From the NCBI RefSeq assembly GCF_009649845.1, contig NZ_WJIE01000005.1, forward strand, positions 434,001-498,000: a stretch of 64,000 nt of DNA, read 5' to 3'. Each line of letters opens with the position of its first letter. Position 1 is the first letter of the stretch. Below the pieces are notes generated by a model. It ran no database searches and was not told the origin of the DNA. It worked only from the letters and a program-made list of their open reading frames with translations. The position numbers and the translations under genes were made by a program. The DNA is from Polyangium spumosum. GTDB lineage: Bacteria > Myxococcota_A > Polyangia > Polyangiales > Polyangiaceae. Shown here piece by piece: positions 7,696 through 55,079 of the stretch.

Positions 7696-9252
7696 CGGGG
7701 TGAGGAGGGCATCGATGTCTGCGAGGATCTGCTGGGCCACCGGGAGGTCGCCGCTCCCGATCTCCTGGAGGATGTCCACCCCCTGCTGCACGAGCTGCCG
7801 ACCCTTGGCAACGCGGCCGGTCGTCACCTCGAGCTGTCCGAGCATGACCAGGGAAAGGGCGAGACCGGCACGATTGCCGATCTCCTCAAGAACCCCGATC
7901 GATTCCTCCAGCAGCTTCCGCGCCTCCTCATACCGGCCCTGACGAAACTCGATGAGCGCGAGCTGATGCAACGAAGCGGCCCGCCCAGCACGATCCCCGA
8001 GCTCCTCCCTCACCCCGATCGATTCCTCCAGCAACTTCCGCGCCTCCTCGTAACGGCCCTCGCGAAACTCAATGCTCGCGAGCTGATGCAACGAGGCGGC
8101 CCGCCCCGCACGATCTCCGAGCTCCTCCCTCACTGCGATCGATTCCTCCAGCAGCTTCCGCGCCTCCTCGTAATGACCCTGTCGATACTCGATGCTCGCG
8201 AGCTGATGCAACGAGGCAGCCCGCCCCACACGATTCCCGATCTCCTCCGTCACCACGATCGATTCCTCCAGCAGCTTCCGCGCCTCCTCGTAACGGCCCT
8301 GCCGCTCCTCGATGATCGAGAGCTGATGCAATGAAGCAGCCCGCCCAGCACGATCCCCGAGTTCCTCGTTCACCTCGACGGATTCACGAAGCAGCTTCCG
8401 CGCCTCCTCGTAACGGCCCTGCCGCTCCTCGATGATCGCGAGCTGGTGAAGAGCCCACGCACGGCCGGCGCGATCGCCTCGCGCCTCATAAGCTTCACGG
8501 GCCGTCCGGAGATGCTCCCGTGCCTCCTCGTAACGGCCGTTCGCTCCTGCCAGGAACGCGTCACACATCCGTCGTCGCGGATCGGTCTCCCGCGCCTCGG
8601 GCTCGTGCATGTCGAGCTGCGCCAGCAAATCGGCGGCTTCGTCAAGCTGCCTGAAACGAATCGCCCGAATGGCCCGTCTCAGCAGATCCCCCGCTCCGAC
8701 CTCGCCCACCGGGGCCGGTTCTGCCATCACGCCCGGCGCATCGATCGTCGCCAGCATCTCCCGCAGCGGCTCCGGCTTCTCCTCCCACAACCAGAAGCCG
8801 AAATCGACGAAATCAGGCGCCTTCATCTGGAGCTCGCGCCCCACCTCCGGATGCACGAGCAGGATCCACATCATCGGAAACGCCTTCACGAGTTCGTCCC
8901 GCTGCACGTTGAGCTGCGCGATGATCAAGCTCCGATGCTCTGCCTCCTCCAGCCGGTGCAAAATCAACGCCGAGGCCCCGGCCGCCTGCGCCTCCTCCAG
9001 CAAAGCCCAGAGCCGCTCCTTGCTCGGGCCGATCCAATGGAGCGCAATCGCGCGCGCACGCGGCACCTTCGCTTGCGTCCACGCGAGGAGCGCGTCTCGC
9101 TTCCAGGGCGTCGTGACCTCGACGATCGCAAGGGAAAAATCCCCCTCGACCGACCAATCCACGAACCGCCGAAAGGCCGCGCCGTCCTCCTCCCCGAGCA
9201 GCGCCTCCGGCTCGCGAAGGACCGCCGGGGGCCTATCGCTTGGCGCCGTCAT
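7675..9252 (-). CDS. TPR protein with N-terminal STAND/NTPase-like domain, partner of ATPase
   Basis: 525 residues from ATG 9252, overlapping the 3' end of the upstream ATPase gene by 20 bp. The first ~170 residues form a domain with FSLAIVEV, RARAIALHWIG and LNVQRDELVKAF, then WILLVHPEV and an APDFVDFGFW motif. It resembles the N-terminal domain of the protein at 3136-4770 and has no visible Walker A. After a linker come kinesin-light-chain-like TPRs of 40 residues each (GRYEEARKLLEESI, then GDRAGRAASLHQLA). At least six are so alike that the DNA keeps a 120-bp period. This is the architecture of a sensor whose ligand-binding surface is a repeat array. Overlap with the ATPase suggests the two act together. 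The function is not known. Confidence 0.85.
   Translation of the reverse strand: MTAPSDRPPAVLREPEALLGEEDGAAFRRFVDWSVEGDFSLAIVEVTTPWKRDALLAWTQAKVPRARAIALHWIGPSKERLWALLEEAQAAGASALILHRLEEAEHRSLIIAQLNVQRDELVKAFPMMWILLVHPEVGRELQMKAPDFVDFGFWLWEEKPEPLREMLATIDAPGVMAEPAPVGEVGAGDLLRRAIRAIRFRQLDEAADLLAQLDMHEPEARETDPRRRMCDAFLAGANGRYEEAREHLRTAREAYEARGDRAGRAWALHQLAIIEERQGRYEEARKLLRESVEVNEELGDRAGRAASLHQLSIIEERQGRYEEARKLLEESIVVTEEIGNRVGRAASLHQLASIEYRQGHYEEARKLLEESIAVREELGDRAGRAASLHQLASIEFREGRYEEARKLLEESIGVREELGDRAGRAASLHQLALIEFRQGRYEEARKLLEESIGVLEEIGNRAGLALSLVMLGQLEVTTGRVAKGRQLVQQGVDILQEIGSGDLPVAQQILADIDALLTPPEPSTA
7861..8580 (-). repeat. 120-bp tandem repeats encoding TPR units
   Basis: The 3' half of the TPR gene is a DNA-level tandem array with an exact 120-bp (40-codon) period. 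The anchor CGCCTCCTCGTAACGGCCCT or a near match starts at 7921, 8041, 8161, 8281, 8401 and 8521 (plus-strand reading). The four inner units (8041-8520) look the most alike, while the outer unit at 8521 is more diverged. This suggests recent expansion by unequal crossing-over in the middle of the array. Confidence 0.9.
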
Positions 9253-51339: not shown

Positions 51340-51579
51340 CGGTCGAGGATTCTAAAACAAAACCCGCGCGCCCGGACCCCCGGATCGCCTCATTTCCAGG
51401 CCGCACCGCGACCCCCGGGGCCCGCGCCCCGCGGCTGCGGCCCGGTCGCCCGCAGATGCGGGCTGGCGCACCCGGCCAGGACGGTCCTCGGCCCGGATCC
51501 AACGAAAACGTGACAAACGAGTGGATTCGTTGCAAATGGTGACAGAGCGCGGAGACCTCCGCGCTGCCTTCGAGGCACG

Positions 51580-52494
51580 ATGAACAAGGCGCGCGCAGGA
51601 TCGAAGCCGAAGCCCACGAAAAAGGCCGCCGCAAAGCGCACGAAGGCCGCCGCGACGAAGGCCGCCCTCGTGCCGACCGCCCCGCAGGCGCCGGAGTTCC
51701 GGCTCGCGCGGACCGAACCTCCGCCCGCGGCGGACGAGCCGCTCGTGACGAAGTGGGCCGCGCGTGGCGCCGCGCTCCTGCGTGAGCTCGCCGCGCACGG
51801 CGCCGGGGACCACGAGTATCGCGTGGACCTGAAGGACGGTCGTTTCGTGTGGCTCGACCCGCGCGGCCGTGTCTCGGCCGAGGCCCGCGCGAAGGCGCTC
51901 TGTAGCTTCGCGCCCACGACGTCGTCGCTCACGATGGCCTGGGCCGATCCGCTCCTGCGCGCGGCGTCGGTGCGCCCGATCGATCGGATGCCGACGGAGC
52001 GGGACGACCTGGACGAGGAAGGGGCCTGGCGCGTGGCGATCGCGGCGGCCGAGGCCTCGGGCGTCGAATGGGTCTACCGCGTGGCCGCGCCGCACTCGTG
52101 GTACTTCCTCGGGCTCACGGGCCTGTCGTTCCAGCCGATCAGCCCCTCGTTCACGCCCGGCTCGCCGGCGGGCCTGGTGCTGCTCGAGCTCGAGGCGAGC
52201 CGCAAGGCGATCCGCTCGGGCGCGGAGCCGGCCGTCGTCCTGCGCGAGCGCCTGGCGCGGGTGGGCAGCGCGCTCCTGCACGAGGCCGAATACGCCTACC
52301 GCAGCACGGACTGGGTGTCGCGGCTCTCGCGGACGGGGAAGCGGCTGGAGACCCTGGCGGAGAAGGTGCCGGTGCCGTCGTTCGAGGCGGTCGCGAAGGA
52401 GGGCACGGCGTCGGAATGGCTGGCGCCGGAGCTCGCAGGCAACCTCGACGAGGCGCTCGGGTTGCTCGAAGACGAGTGGCGGTTGTTCGCGTAA
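51580..52494 (+). CDS. Unknown protein, possibly DUF6882-like
   Basis: 304 residues. The N-terminal ~35 residues are Lys/Ala-rich (KKAAAKRTKAAATKAA), resembling a basic, perhaps nucleic-acid-binding tail. The core has EYRVDLKDGRFVWLDPRGR, ALCSFAPTTSSLTMAWADP and HSWYFLGLTGLSFQP. This vaguely recalls DUF6882 proteins, where a similar Asp-Gly strand precedes a Trp-Ala-Trp motif. I regard the family link as weak. A perfect 7-bp hairpin (GCGCGGA/TCCGCGC, 51547-51564) lies just before the start and could affect translation. A large tandem repeat array begins 2 bp after the stop. Confidence 0.72.
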   Translation: MNKARAGSKPKPTKKAAAKRTKAAATKAALVPTAPQAPEFRLARTEPPPAADEPLVTKWAARGAALLRELAAHGAGDHEYRVDLKDGRFVWLDPRGRVSAEARAKALCSFAPTTSSLTMAWADPLLRAASVRPIDRMPTERDDLDEEGAWRVAIAAAEASGVEWVYRVAAPHSWYFLGLTGLSFQPISPSFTPGSPAGLVLLELEASRKAIRSGAEPAVVLRERLARVGSALLHEAEYAYRSTDWVSRLSRTGKRLETLAEKVPVPSFEAVAKEGTASEWLAPELAGNLDEALGLLEDEWRLFA

Positions 52495-52496
52495 TC

Positions 52497-52818
52497 GACG
52501 CCCTCGACCCGGTCTGCGACGCCCTCGACCCGGTCTGCGACGCCCTCGACCCGGTCTGCGACCCCCTCGAGACCTTTGCTCGAAGGTCTCCACCCGGTCT
52601 GCGACCCCCTCGACCCGGTCTGCGACCCCCTCGAGACCTTTGCTCGAAGGTCTCCACCCGGTCTGCGACCCCCTCGACCCGGTCTGCGACCCCCTCGAGA
52701 CCTTTGCTCGAAGGTCTCCACCCGGTCTGCGACCCCCTCGAGACCTTCGATCGACCCCCTCGAGACCTTCGATCGACCCCCTCGACCCGGTCGATCAACC
52801 CCCTCGAGCCCTCGCGCC
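52497..52818. repeat. Higher-order tandem repeat with embedded hairpins (21/43/64 bp)
   Basis: Three 21-bp units (GACGCCCTCGACCCGGTCTGC type) fill 52497-52559. Three 43-bp units follow at 52560-52602, 52624-52666 and 52688-52730, alternating with 21-bp units at 52603-52623 and 52667-52687, so the larger period is 64 bp. Each 43-bp unit contains a perfect 8-bp inverted repeat, GAGACCTT-TGCTCG-AAGGTCTC. Four degenerate 22-bp units end near 52818, inside the hisZ 3' end. The array lies between two converging genes, and there is otherwise nothing in the 300-bp gap. Confidence 0.92.
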
Positions 52819-54153
52819 AGCCGCGGGGAACCCGACCGTCTCGGCGATACGCTCGGCGCCGGTGTCCGCCGCCACCTCCACCGCCGCCTCGGGCTCGTCC
52901 GTCGGCACGATTCTCACCGCACCCTCGCTCCCCTCGACCACCACATGCGAATAATGGTGCGCCTGGGCATATCGCAACACGTCCGGCCCCTGCCCGCGCG
53001 CCGCCGCGATTCCCCTCGCCCGCAGCGCCAGCACGAGCGCCTCCCCCGGCGGATCCGCCGCCACGAGCACCCGGATCGGCCTTTCGTCCCGCACGCCCGA
53101 GGCCTCGCGCGCCCGCGCGATCGCGTCGAGGTGCAGCCCGAACCCCACGGCCTGCATGGGCAGACCAAATCGTCCGAGCAAATCGTCGTATCGACCACCC
53201 GCCCCGATCGGCTCGCCCGGCCCCGGCGCCAGCACGTGGAAAATGGGGCCGGTATAATACGCAAAACCCCGCACCTCGCCGAGATCGAGCCGCAACACGT
53301 CCGCGAGGCCGTCCGAAGGCGCGCCCGCGGGCGCCGTCCTCGGCCGGCGCGCCGTCTCCCAGAGCGCCCGGAGCTCCCGCAAAGGCCCCTCCGCCCCCGT
53401 CCCCGCGAAGAGCTTTTCGGCGCGCGCGAGGATCTCCTCGCCCGGCCTGTCCTCCGCCCCGCCCGCGAGCTCCGGCAGCGCCACGAGCGCCTCCGCCACG
53501 CGCCTCGGCACCGCCGCCGCCTCCCGCCCCGAGAGCAACACGACGAGCCGCGAGGCGTCCTTCTGCGCGAGCGCGTCCGTCACCTCCACGTCGAGCGGCG
53601 ACGGCACCGCGTCGATCAAGGCGCGCGCGATGAGCGCGTGGCCGAGGTCGATCACGAACGACCCCAGGCCCACCACGCGCGTCACGGACGCGAGCAGGCG
53701 CAGCGCCTCGAGGTCCCCCTCGGGCGACGGCGCGCCGTAGAGCTCCACGCCCGCCTGCGGGATCTGCCGGTGTTTTTTGGCCCGACCTTGCCGGCGACGG
53801 ACGATCGTCCCTTCGTAGCACAGACGGATCGGCCGAGGCTCGGCGGCGAGGCGCGTGGCCACCATCCGCGCGATCTGCGGGGTCATGTCCGGACGGAGCG
53901 CGCACACCTCGCCGCTCTCCGGCTCCACGAAGCGCAGCACGTCGCCTGGATCCAGCGCGCCGAGGCCCTTCTCGAGCACCTCGGCCAGCTCGAACGCCGG
54001 CGACGTCACCAGGTCGTAGCCGTGCAGAGCAAAATGGTCGAGGATCCCCCGAGCGAGCGCGCGCCTTCTTCTCGTCTCTTCCGGTAAGAGATCACGCATC
54101 CCGGCGGGGAGGGGATGCGACAGCGCCTTGGGCGGAGCGACAGCACGGTCCAC
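52795..54153 (-). CDS. hisZ: ATP phosphoribosyltransferase regulatory subunit-like protein
   Basis: About 452 residues from GTG 54153. This places the usual short lead before PLPAGMRDLLPEETRRRRAL, the class II HisRS-fold opening. ATG 54099 would start inside the motif. Core motifs are LRPDMTPQIARMVATRL, CYEGTIVRRR, and GAGGRYDDLLGRFG followed by AVGFGLHLDAI. The last ~80 residues extend the fold. HisZ lacks aminoacylation and forms the short-type HisG complex in histidine synthesis; a HisS assignment is less likely given the C-terminal sequence. The stop lies inside the tandem repeat array, so the final residues (GARARGG) come from it. Confidence 0.82.
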   Translation of the reverse strand: MDRAVAPPKALSHPLPAGMRDLLPEETRRRRALARGILDHFALHGYDLVTSPAFELAEVLEKGLGALDPGDVLRFVEPESGEVCALRPDMTPQIARMVATRLAAEPRPIRLCYEGTIVRRRQGRAKKHRQIPQAGVELYGAPSPEGDLEALRLLASVTRVVGLGSFVIDLGHALIARALIDAVPSPLDVEVTDALAQKDASRLVVLLSGREAAAVPRRVAEALVALPELAGGAEDRPGEEILARAEKLFAGTGAEGPLRELRALWETARRPRTAPAGAPSDGLADVLRLDLGEVRGFAYYTGPIFHVLAPGPGEPIGAGGRYDDLLGRFGLPMQAVGFGLHLDAIARAREASGVRDERPIRVLVAADPPGEALVLALRARGIAAARGQGPDVLRYAQAHHYSHVVVEGSEGAVRIVPTDEPEAAVEVAADTGAERIAETVGFPAAGARARGG

Positions 54154-54296
54154 GCGTGGGCTTATACCGCGGCTGGGCAATCCGTGCGCATCGTTTGTGC
54201 CCTCGCTGCGATTCCCTACGCGCCCGACGAGGCGCGGAGGCACATCCATCACGCCCCGACGTGCCAGCGGCGCCAGCCATTCGCGCGAATCCCCTC

Positions 54297-54343
54297 CTGC
54301 CATGCCTGGCAGATGACTTGCTAACGCCGAGCACCTGCCAGGC
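54297..54343 (+). promoter_or_regulatory. Leader with alternative hairpins before ECF sigma gene
   Basis: Arm 1 is CTGCCA (54297-54302) and arm 2 is GCCTGGCAG (54304-54312). Arm 3 is CTGCCAGGC (54335-54343), a perfect 9-bp complement of arm 2. Arm 2 can pair with arm 1 (TGGCAG/CTGCCA, 4-nt loop) or with arm 3 (22-nt loop), so the two structures exclude each other. It lies 44 bp before the sigma-factor start. The rest of the hisZ-sigma gap (54154-54386) holds nothing else clear. Confidence 0.45.
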
Positions 54344-54386
54344 GCGCCCACGAAGTGCCGGGAAAGCGCTGGTGATGGAGGCTCTC

Positions 54387-55079
54387 ATGGCCGTCCAGGC
54401 CGTCACGACGACGCGTACCTCCGCGGCACCGCCCGCGCCTGCCGGGGCAGAGGCCCGGCTCAGCGAGCTCATCGAGCGCGTCAAGAACGGAGACACCGTG
54501 GCGCTCGACGCGCTCACGCGTACCATCCGGCCGCATGTGGAGCGGCAGCTCGCTCGGTATCCCGTCTCGGACGAAGACAGGCTCGATCTGGTTCAATCCA
54601 CGCTCCTCCAGGTCATCCGTCGAATCCGATCTTTCCGCGGCGATTCGAGCTTCACGACGTGGCTCTTCCGGGTCACGGCGAACGAAGCTCTGATGCTGAT
54701 GCGCTCCCAGAGGCGTCAGCGAGCGCGGTTCGTGGGCGGGCTCGACCTCGAAGACCTCAGCGTTCTGCCCACGATGCGCGCGCCCGCGCTCGAGGACGAC
54801 GCCGCGAGCGTGGCCGAGCGCGAGCGGTTCGTCCGGCTCGCATTGGGCGAGCTGCCAAACGATTATCGGGACGTGGTGATGGCGCATTACCACGAGGACC
54901 TCGGCCTGCAGGAGATCGCGCAGAAGCTCATGGTGAGCGAGAGCGCCGTCCGCTCGCGCCTCCACCGCGCGCGCCTGCGCCTGCGGGCGATCCTGAACGC
55001 GACACCTTATGGTCGCGAGCTCCAGGCGGGATTCGTCCCGGCCGAGCGCCGGGGGGCCCCGGGGACGACGGCCGGGTGA
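54387..55079 (+). CDS. ECF-type RNA polymerase sigma factor
   Basis: 230 residues from ATG 54387, which has GGAGG 5 nt upstream; ATG 54375 is the alternative. Region 2 reads VSDEDRLDLVQSTLLQVIRRIRSFRGDSSFTTWLFRVTANEALM, the classic ECF sigma2 block. Region 4 is GELPNDYRDVVMAHYHEDLGLQEIAQKLMVSESAVRSRLHRARLRL. The N-terminal 40 residues are an Ala/Thr/Pro-rich lead. No anti-sigma gene is adjacent. The next gene is a VWA lipoprotein that is not an obvious anti-sigma factor. Regulation may involve the hairpin leader. Confidence 0.95.
   Translation: MAVQAVTTTRTSAAPPAPAGAEARLSELIERVKNGDTVALDALTRTIRPHVERQLARYPVSDEDRLDLVQSTLLQVIRRIRSFRGDSSFTTWLFRVTANEALMLMRSQRRQRARFVGGLDLEDLSVLPTMRAPALEDDAASVAERERFVRLALGELPNDYRDVVMAHYHEDLGLQEIAQKLMVSESAVRSRLHRARLRLRAILNATPYGRELQAGFVPAERRGAPGTTAG

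Follow-up and report, generated by a model that had tools for sequence, protein, structure and literature searches.

An array behind hisZ in Polyangium spumosum and intergenic tandem repeats of the genus with periods near multiples of 21.5 bp

The gap between hisZ and its convergent neighbour in Polyangium spumosum is filled by a tandem array which we think is somewhat more probably than otherwise a non-coding satellite, one of a large Polyangium class in which the units are unrelated in sequence and the period keeps mostly to a grid with a step of about 21.5 bp, as if set by a ruler. The grid was observed in samples of three genomes, together with several dispersed families of units and with presence, absence and replacement of arrays at the same sites in different species. 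The six comparable genomes studied here, with a grid close to a half integer, sites that are empty or differently filled and a dyad symmetry that can be measured, offer a practical way to ask why certain bacteria have satellites whose length is fixed and whose sequence is free, and what determines that length. The window, that is the whole stretch of 64,000 nucleotides that was analysed, lies within contig C5 of the 10.76 Mb genome (G000), which we compared with five congeners (G001 to G005), each species being represented by one genome.

Structure of the array behind hisZ

When the array is cut before each CTCGA or CTCCA from position 52503 onwards, it resolves into blocks of 21, 21, 21, 22, 21, 21, 22, 21, 21, 22, 21, 22, 22 and 22 bp followed by a stub of 10 bp (Table 1). 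Three blocks of CTCGACCCGGTCTGCGACSCC come first; they are followed by three rounds, each made of a hairpin-bearing 22-mer and 21-mers, and then by three 22-mers and the stub. This in-phase cutting bears out the higher-order repeat of 21, 43 and 64 bp described in the original prediction, the two longer periods being sums of the blocks (21+22=43 and 21+21+22=64). The 43-bp unit proposed there holds as a period and not as a single unit, since the 43-mer is a 22-mer joined to a 21-mer. TRF returned rows of 21, 22, 64 and 85 bp between 52495 and 52812; the array scored 427, and 200 dinucleotide-shuffled versions reached 79 at most. The array itself is thus confirmed, while its limits had been placed slightly too far to the right (at 52497-52818).

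The three perfect hairpins that had been announced were all recovered, each with a loop of 6 nt (GAGACCTT-TGCTCG-AAGGTCTC). The placement of the array in a convergent gap and its entry into the end of hisZ were correct as well: the TAA of the left neighbour, at 52492-52494, abuts the array, and the hisZ stop (TGA on the minus strand, at 52795-52797) lies inside it with the final hisZ codons. At this end the array took the place of the HisZ tail found in the congeners, and the frame is still open. The array resembles a CRISPR in its short, regularly spaced repeats but differs from it in having no unique spacers; as originally argued, the apparent spacers are themselves repeats. A search of Rfam with the window from 51500 to 54500 gave no match at E<=1.

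Table 1. Coordinates of the array behind hisZ, its parts and neighbours, and of a second array in the window.
Feature	Position in window	Strand	Remarks
Tandem array	52495..52812	.	Fourteen full 21-/22-bp blocks at 52503-52802, then 10-bp stub
Hairpin copy 1, GAGACCTT-6-AAGGTCTC	52569..52590	.	RNA fold -11.4 kcal/mol on +, -10.2 on -
Hairpin copy 2	52633..52654	.	Pattern match
Hairpin copy 3	52697..52718	.	Pattern match
22-bp sub-array at hisZ end, consensus CGACCCCCTCGAGACCTTCGAT	52730..52812	.	TRF
Left convergent neighbour, DUF6882 protein	51580..52494	+	TAA abuts array
hisZ	52795..54009	-	Name from original prediction; Pfam match tRNA-synt_His; start is the script's gene call, longest ORF to 54351
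Second on-grid array, 43-bp units GGGGGTTCGGGAGGCGCAAGGCGTTGCGGTGAGGGAACCCCAA	7445..7685	.	TRF; sequence unrelated to hisZ array

Period and symmetry of Polyangium arrays

We sampled 400 kb each from contig C1 of G000, from G003 and from G004, in addition to the window, and took as controls from other genera G024 (400 kb), G023 and G036 (200 kb each). Genes were called with a codon-usage script and arrays with TRF, and we kept arrays that were intergenic, scored at least 100 and had a best period between 19 and 151. The gene calls are supported by the genic arrays of the Polyangium samples, all 39 of which had a period divisible by three. Among the intergenic arrays, 18 of 26 in Polyangium and 2 of 30 in the control genera were on the grid (Fisher p 9e-7; 16 of 24 and p 3e-6 when the two arrays of the window are removed), p values that are descriptive because the rule for the grid was fixed after the first periods had been seen. 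The individual counts were 9/12 in G000, 4/7 in G003 and 5/7 in G004, against 2/9 in G023, 0/18 in G024 and 0/3 in G036. The periods of the grid are 21, 22, 43, 64/65, 86, 129 and 150, with 43 (21+22) the commonest best period, and the best lattice constant was 21.5 for 29 Polyangium arrays (score 0.69) as opposed to 32.85 for 38 others (score 0.17). Eight of the 26 arrays are off the grid; two of 63 and one of 84 have periods that are multiples of 21, and those of 30, 51, 55, 78 and 90 are plainly off. Extrapolating from 9 grid arrays in 464 kb, G000 would hold about 200 of them.

We also used a test that is free of TRF, in which intergenic gaps holding a repeated 11-mer were counted for each distance, with no preselection of arrays by period. 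The 467 Polyangium gaps gave 12 each for distances 43 and 86, 10 for 42, 9 each for 129 and 21, and 6 each for 22, 85, 128 and 172. Distances 42 and 43 were found at 7 and 7 gaps in G000, and because 42 is at short range nearly as common as 43, it is the longer multiples (86, 129 and 172) and the best periods that support a half-integer step. Distances of one and a half steps (32, 54, 75) did not rank among the top 22 for the pooled Polyangium gaps, with 54 present in 3 of 127 G003 gaps. Recurrences of 21 bp are present in other genera too: 21 was the commonest distance in G036, at three gaps, and in G023, where 18, 27 and 32 were commonest, 21, 22 and 42 were found at three gaps each. In G024 the commonest distance was 18, followed by 30, 31, 36, 48, 54, 57, 148 and 162.

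Dyad symmetry was scored by treating each unit as a circle and comparing its best dyad with those of 200 circular dinucleotide shuffles. A p value of 0.05 or less was reached by 9 of 18 grid arrays and by 3 of 30 controls (Mann-Whitney p 5e-4; 0.002 without the window), although composite units of 64-150 bp overscore since shuffling destroys their inner repeats; the cleaner subset of sampled arrays with 43-bp units gave 4 of 7, and those with 21-22-bp units 0 of 3. Ten of 14 further arrays passed the same threshold, these having been chosen mostly by similarity and many belonging to one family. When tiled units were folded as RNA, the mean z was -1.82 and -1.85 on the two strands for the 18 grid arrays, compared with -0.27 and -0.01 for the 30 controls, values to which we give little weight because the shuffles of 21-22-bp units started from doubled units and composite units again overscore. 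We considered the hairpin as a feature of the class and rejected it, since just 3 of the 18 grid arrays passed for perfect stems (2 of 8 off-grid and 1 of 30 control arrays) and an earlier palindrome test per unit had been mixed. The perfect hairpin of the window is an extreme case of a partial dyad symmetry found in part of the class, and not the rule.

Families of units and occupation of sites across species

It had been suggested that the unit be sought elsewhere in the genome, a single occurrence being among the findings that would together speak against the prediction. The unit family proved to be dispersed: a DNA search with the array returned four further sites in G000 (two on C3, one on C9 and one on C25) and strong matches in G002, G004 and G005, that is in three of the five congeners. 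G001 (best E 6e-4) and G003 (0.007) gave weak matches only, and a search of 33 relatives outside the genus returned nothing above 48.2 bits. The hairpin pattern itself is confined, among the six genomes of the genus, to the array of the window (3 copies), C3 (2 copies) and G002 (1 copy), and the exact pattern had no match in viral contigs. A pattern of two units, searched in a named genome collection that may omit the window's own genome, matched five stretches; Polyangium sp. 15x6 accounted for three, and an Acidimicrobiaceae MAG and Agromyces italicus for one each.

Other families differ in the sequence of their units, and their 43-bp consensus units look unrelated when judged by eye and by the loci that DNA searches return. 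The GGTCGATCGATGGTGCCCGCA family, at C1:80158, has relatives on C6, C10 and C5 and in G003; the family of the array at C1:297767 has relatives in all six genomes, and that of C1:107270 in G005 and elsewhere in G000. Short words recur among 14 arrays of the own genome, some of which are of one family: GGTCGA is present at three or more copies in 7 of the 14, with 0.33 expected, and CGATCG in 7 of the 14, with 0.35 expected. The second array of the window (Table 1) has strong dyad symmetry and adjoins a TPR gene bearing coding repeats of 120 bp at 7869-8538.

The place behind hisZ is occupied in two of the six species, and by different arrays. G001, G003, G004 and G005 have no array there, hisZ and its neighbour overlapping tail to tail by 39 bp, and G002 carries a different 21-bp array, GGCGTCCACGAGGTCCGGGAA x17.3, that ends 20 bp from the hisZ stop. 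A tree built without a root from 14 concatenated proteins places G002 beside G004 (96.4% amino acid identity) and G000 with G003 and G005, and when this grouping is combined with the pattern of arrays, two separate gains require fewer steps than three losses. The idea of a recombination hot spot survives in part, in that a site prone to recombination or insertion is plausible where the array is missing from four congeners and a different one stands in the fifth. The interval between the DUF6882 gene and hisZ on C123 of G002 measures about 2.3 kb and holds extra open frames where G000 has only the array; one of these frames, searched against Pfam, had no match at E<=0.001.

The place of arrays is partly conserved between species, two other sites being occupied in four of the six. 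Upstream of an Rrf2-type gene (a name taken from its translated start, not from a profile), arrays of the same kind as in the window, 216 to 270 bp in length, are present in G000, G002, G004 and G005; G001 and G003 have none, and the matching DNA ends there as well. Pairwise identity among the four occupied species (six pairs) is 53-80% for the arrays, 61-88% for the adjoining gaps and 88-98% for the Rrf2 gene; the gene at the opposite flank shows 76-86%. The arrays at this site thus drift about like other non-coding DNA, that of G002 most of all. A fast turnover of units, considered from the comparison of G002 with G004, was dropped since the identities of the six pairs are close to those of the adjoining gaps. 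At the other site, the flanks of the array at C1:297767 enclose a relative of that array in G001, G003 and G004 as well, and no relative at E<=1e-10 in G002 and G005.

What could set the repeat length

We favour a reading in which short blocks would first be copied into an intergenic site, and the array so begun would lengthen, shorten and become uniform through slippage or unequal exchange. Of the duplications arising on such slippage-prone DNA, a ruler two helical turns long would determine the lengths that are produced or retained. The ruler would most likely be a dimeric DNA-bound protein or a protein lattice, and half sites of dimer size, or copying by fold-back, might be expected to give partial dyad symmetry. 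The 21.5 grid, the occupation of one orthologous site by unlike arrays and the partial dyad symmetry would all fit a dimer-sized unit of two turns, although none of them proves it.

The main rival to the ruler is descent from a few old arrays. The arrays would then be neutral minisatellites derived from one or a few ancestors of 21, 22 or 43 bp, whose sequence diverged while slippage kept the period, with neither ruler nor function. We regard this as possible though the less likely of the two: the words GGTCGA and CGATCG shared by own-genome arrays speak for it, and so do arrays that stay in place and drift in sequence about as fast as the adjoining non-coding DNA, but the apparent lack of relationship between the 43-bp units of separate families argues against it, as do the hisZ-site arrays of two species, which have different units and the same 21-bp step and neither of which is found in the nearest relative sampled.

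The original prediction had also proposed that the array terminates both genes, and a bidirectional terminator or a stabiliser of both 3' ends would agree with the convergent gap and with the three hairpins, whose folding energies are near -10 to -11 kcal/mol on both strands. We consider this improbable, given that neither strand has a T tract behind the hairpins, that no terminator-like site is present and that four congeners, with overlapping genes, have no array. Moreover, only 2 of the 18 grid arrays in range lie in convergent gaps, the others being in divergent (5) or tandem (11) gaps (one more array, of 321-bp period and outside the range, would bring the number to 19), and the corresponding figures for all gaps are 70 convergent, 166 divergent and 325 tandem. 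Most improbable of all is that a RAYT (Y1 transposase) mobilises the units as palindromes of the REP/BIME type. The units recall such elements in being dispersed, intergenic and partly dyad-bearing, but no REP sequence common to the families was seen, and Y1_Tnp had no match at E<=0.001 in the array-bearing G003 and G004, nor in G001 (there are two matches in G000 and one each in G002 and G005).

Returning to the ruler, satellites of constant repeat size are not new. Subirana and Messeguer reportedly published an earlier survey of them in J. Bacteriol. in 2020, and repeat lengths of 22 and 44 nt are said to occur among them. In a later article the same authors describe bacterial satellites of constant repeat size and variable sequence, unexplained and mostly species-specific, with lengths of 20-21, a few of 40-41, and 52 nt; they point out that 20-21 nt equals two helix turns and propose a protein that polymerises along the DNA, or small RNAs (Subirana and Messeguer 2021, PMC8161180). 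The Polyangium arrays resemble these in being non-coding, in forming several families per genome with one length whatever the sequence, in keeping their place in part and in having short words common within a species (PMC8161180). They differ in a best period that is mostly 43 on a grid of 21.5, in a GC-rich myxobacterium, in a dyad symmetry that has been measured, in different arrays at one orthologous site and in a unit family common to four species (PMC8161180). The lengths 21 and 22 both occur in Polyangium, and the commonest, 43, falls between the published 40-41 and the 44 mentioned above. The hisZ array belongs to this known but unexplained kind of satellite, to which the half-integer grid and the partial dyad symmetry add new clues. 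Our literature search found no report joining Polyangium with tandem repeats, nor Sorangium with 43-bp tandem repeats.

A wider proposal, which we put forward as doubtful, is that Polyangium has a sequence-blind machinery with a dyad-symmetric two-turn ruler of 21.5 bp, and that the same principle, with other rulers, may lie behind the fixed-length satellites of other phyla. Of 27 published Bacillus units of 50-54 nt, several of which look mutually related, 8 exceeded shuffles in self-complementarity at p<=0.05 when whole-unit symmetry was scored, and 10 did so by longest stem, shuffles being the only comparison made; this excess is in line with a ruler principle shared across phyla.

Two further kinds of repeat were seen in the course of the analysis. 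A pair of 28-bp repeats (approximately TGGTCCGGGTCCAGGGGTGAAACCC) is present in G000 at C1:246186-246240 and 338240-338294, with a similar form in G003 at C20:72455-72508 and 252138-252191. Arrays with units of 50-55 bp, rich in arms like GGGGGCT and AGCCCCC, were found in three Polyangium genomes and could possibly represent a REP-like element; their sites are G000 C1:381642-381801, G004 C1:319210-319317, L068 10219-10339, L069 2604-2754 and G005 C13:1-177.
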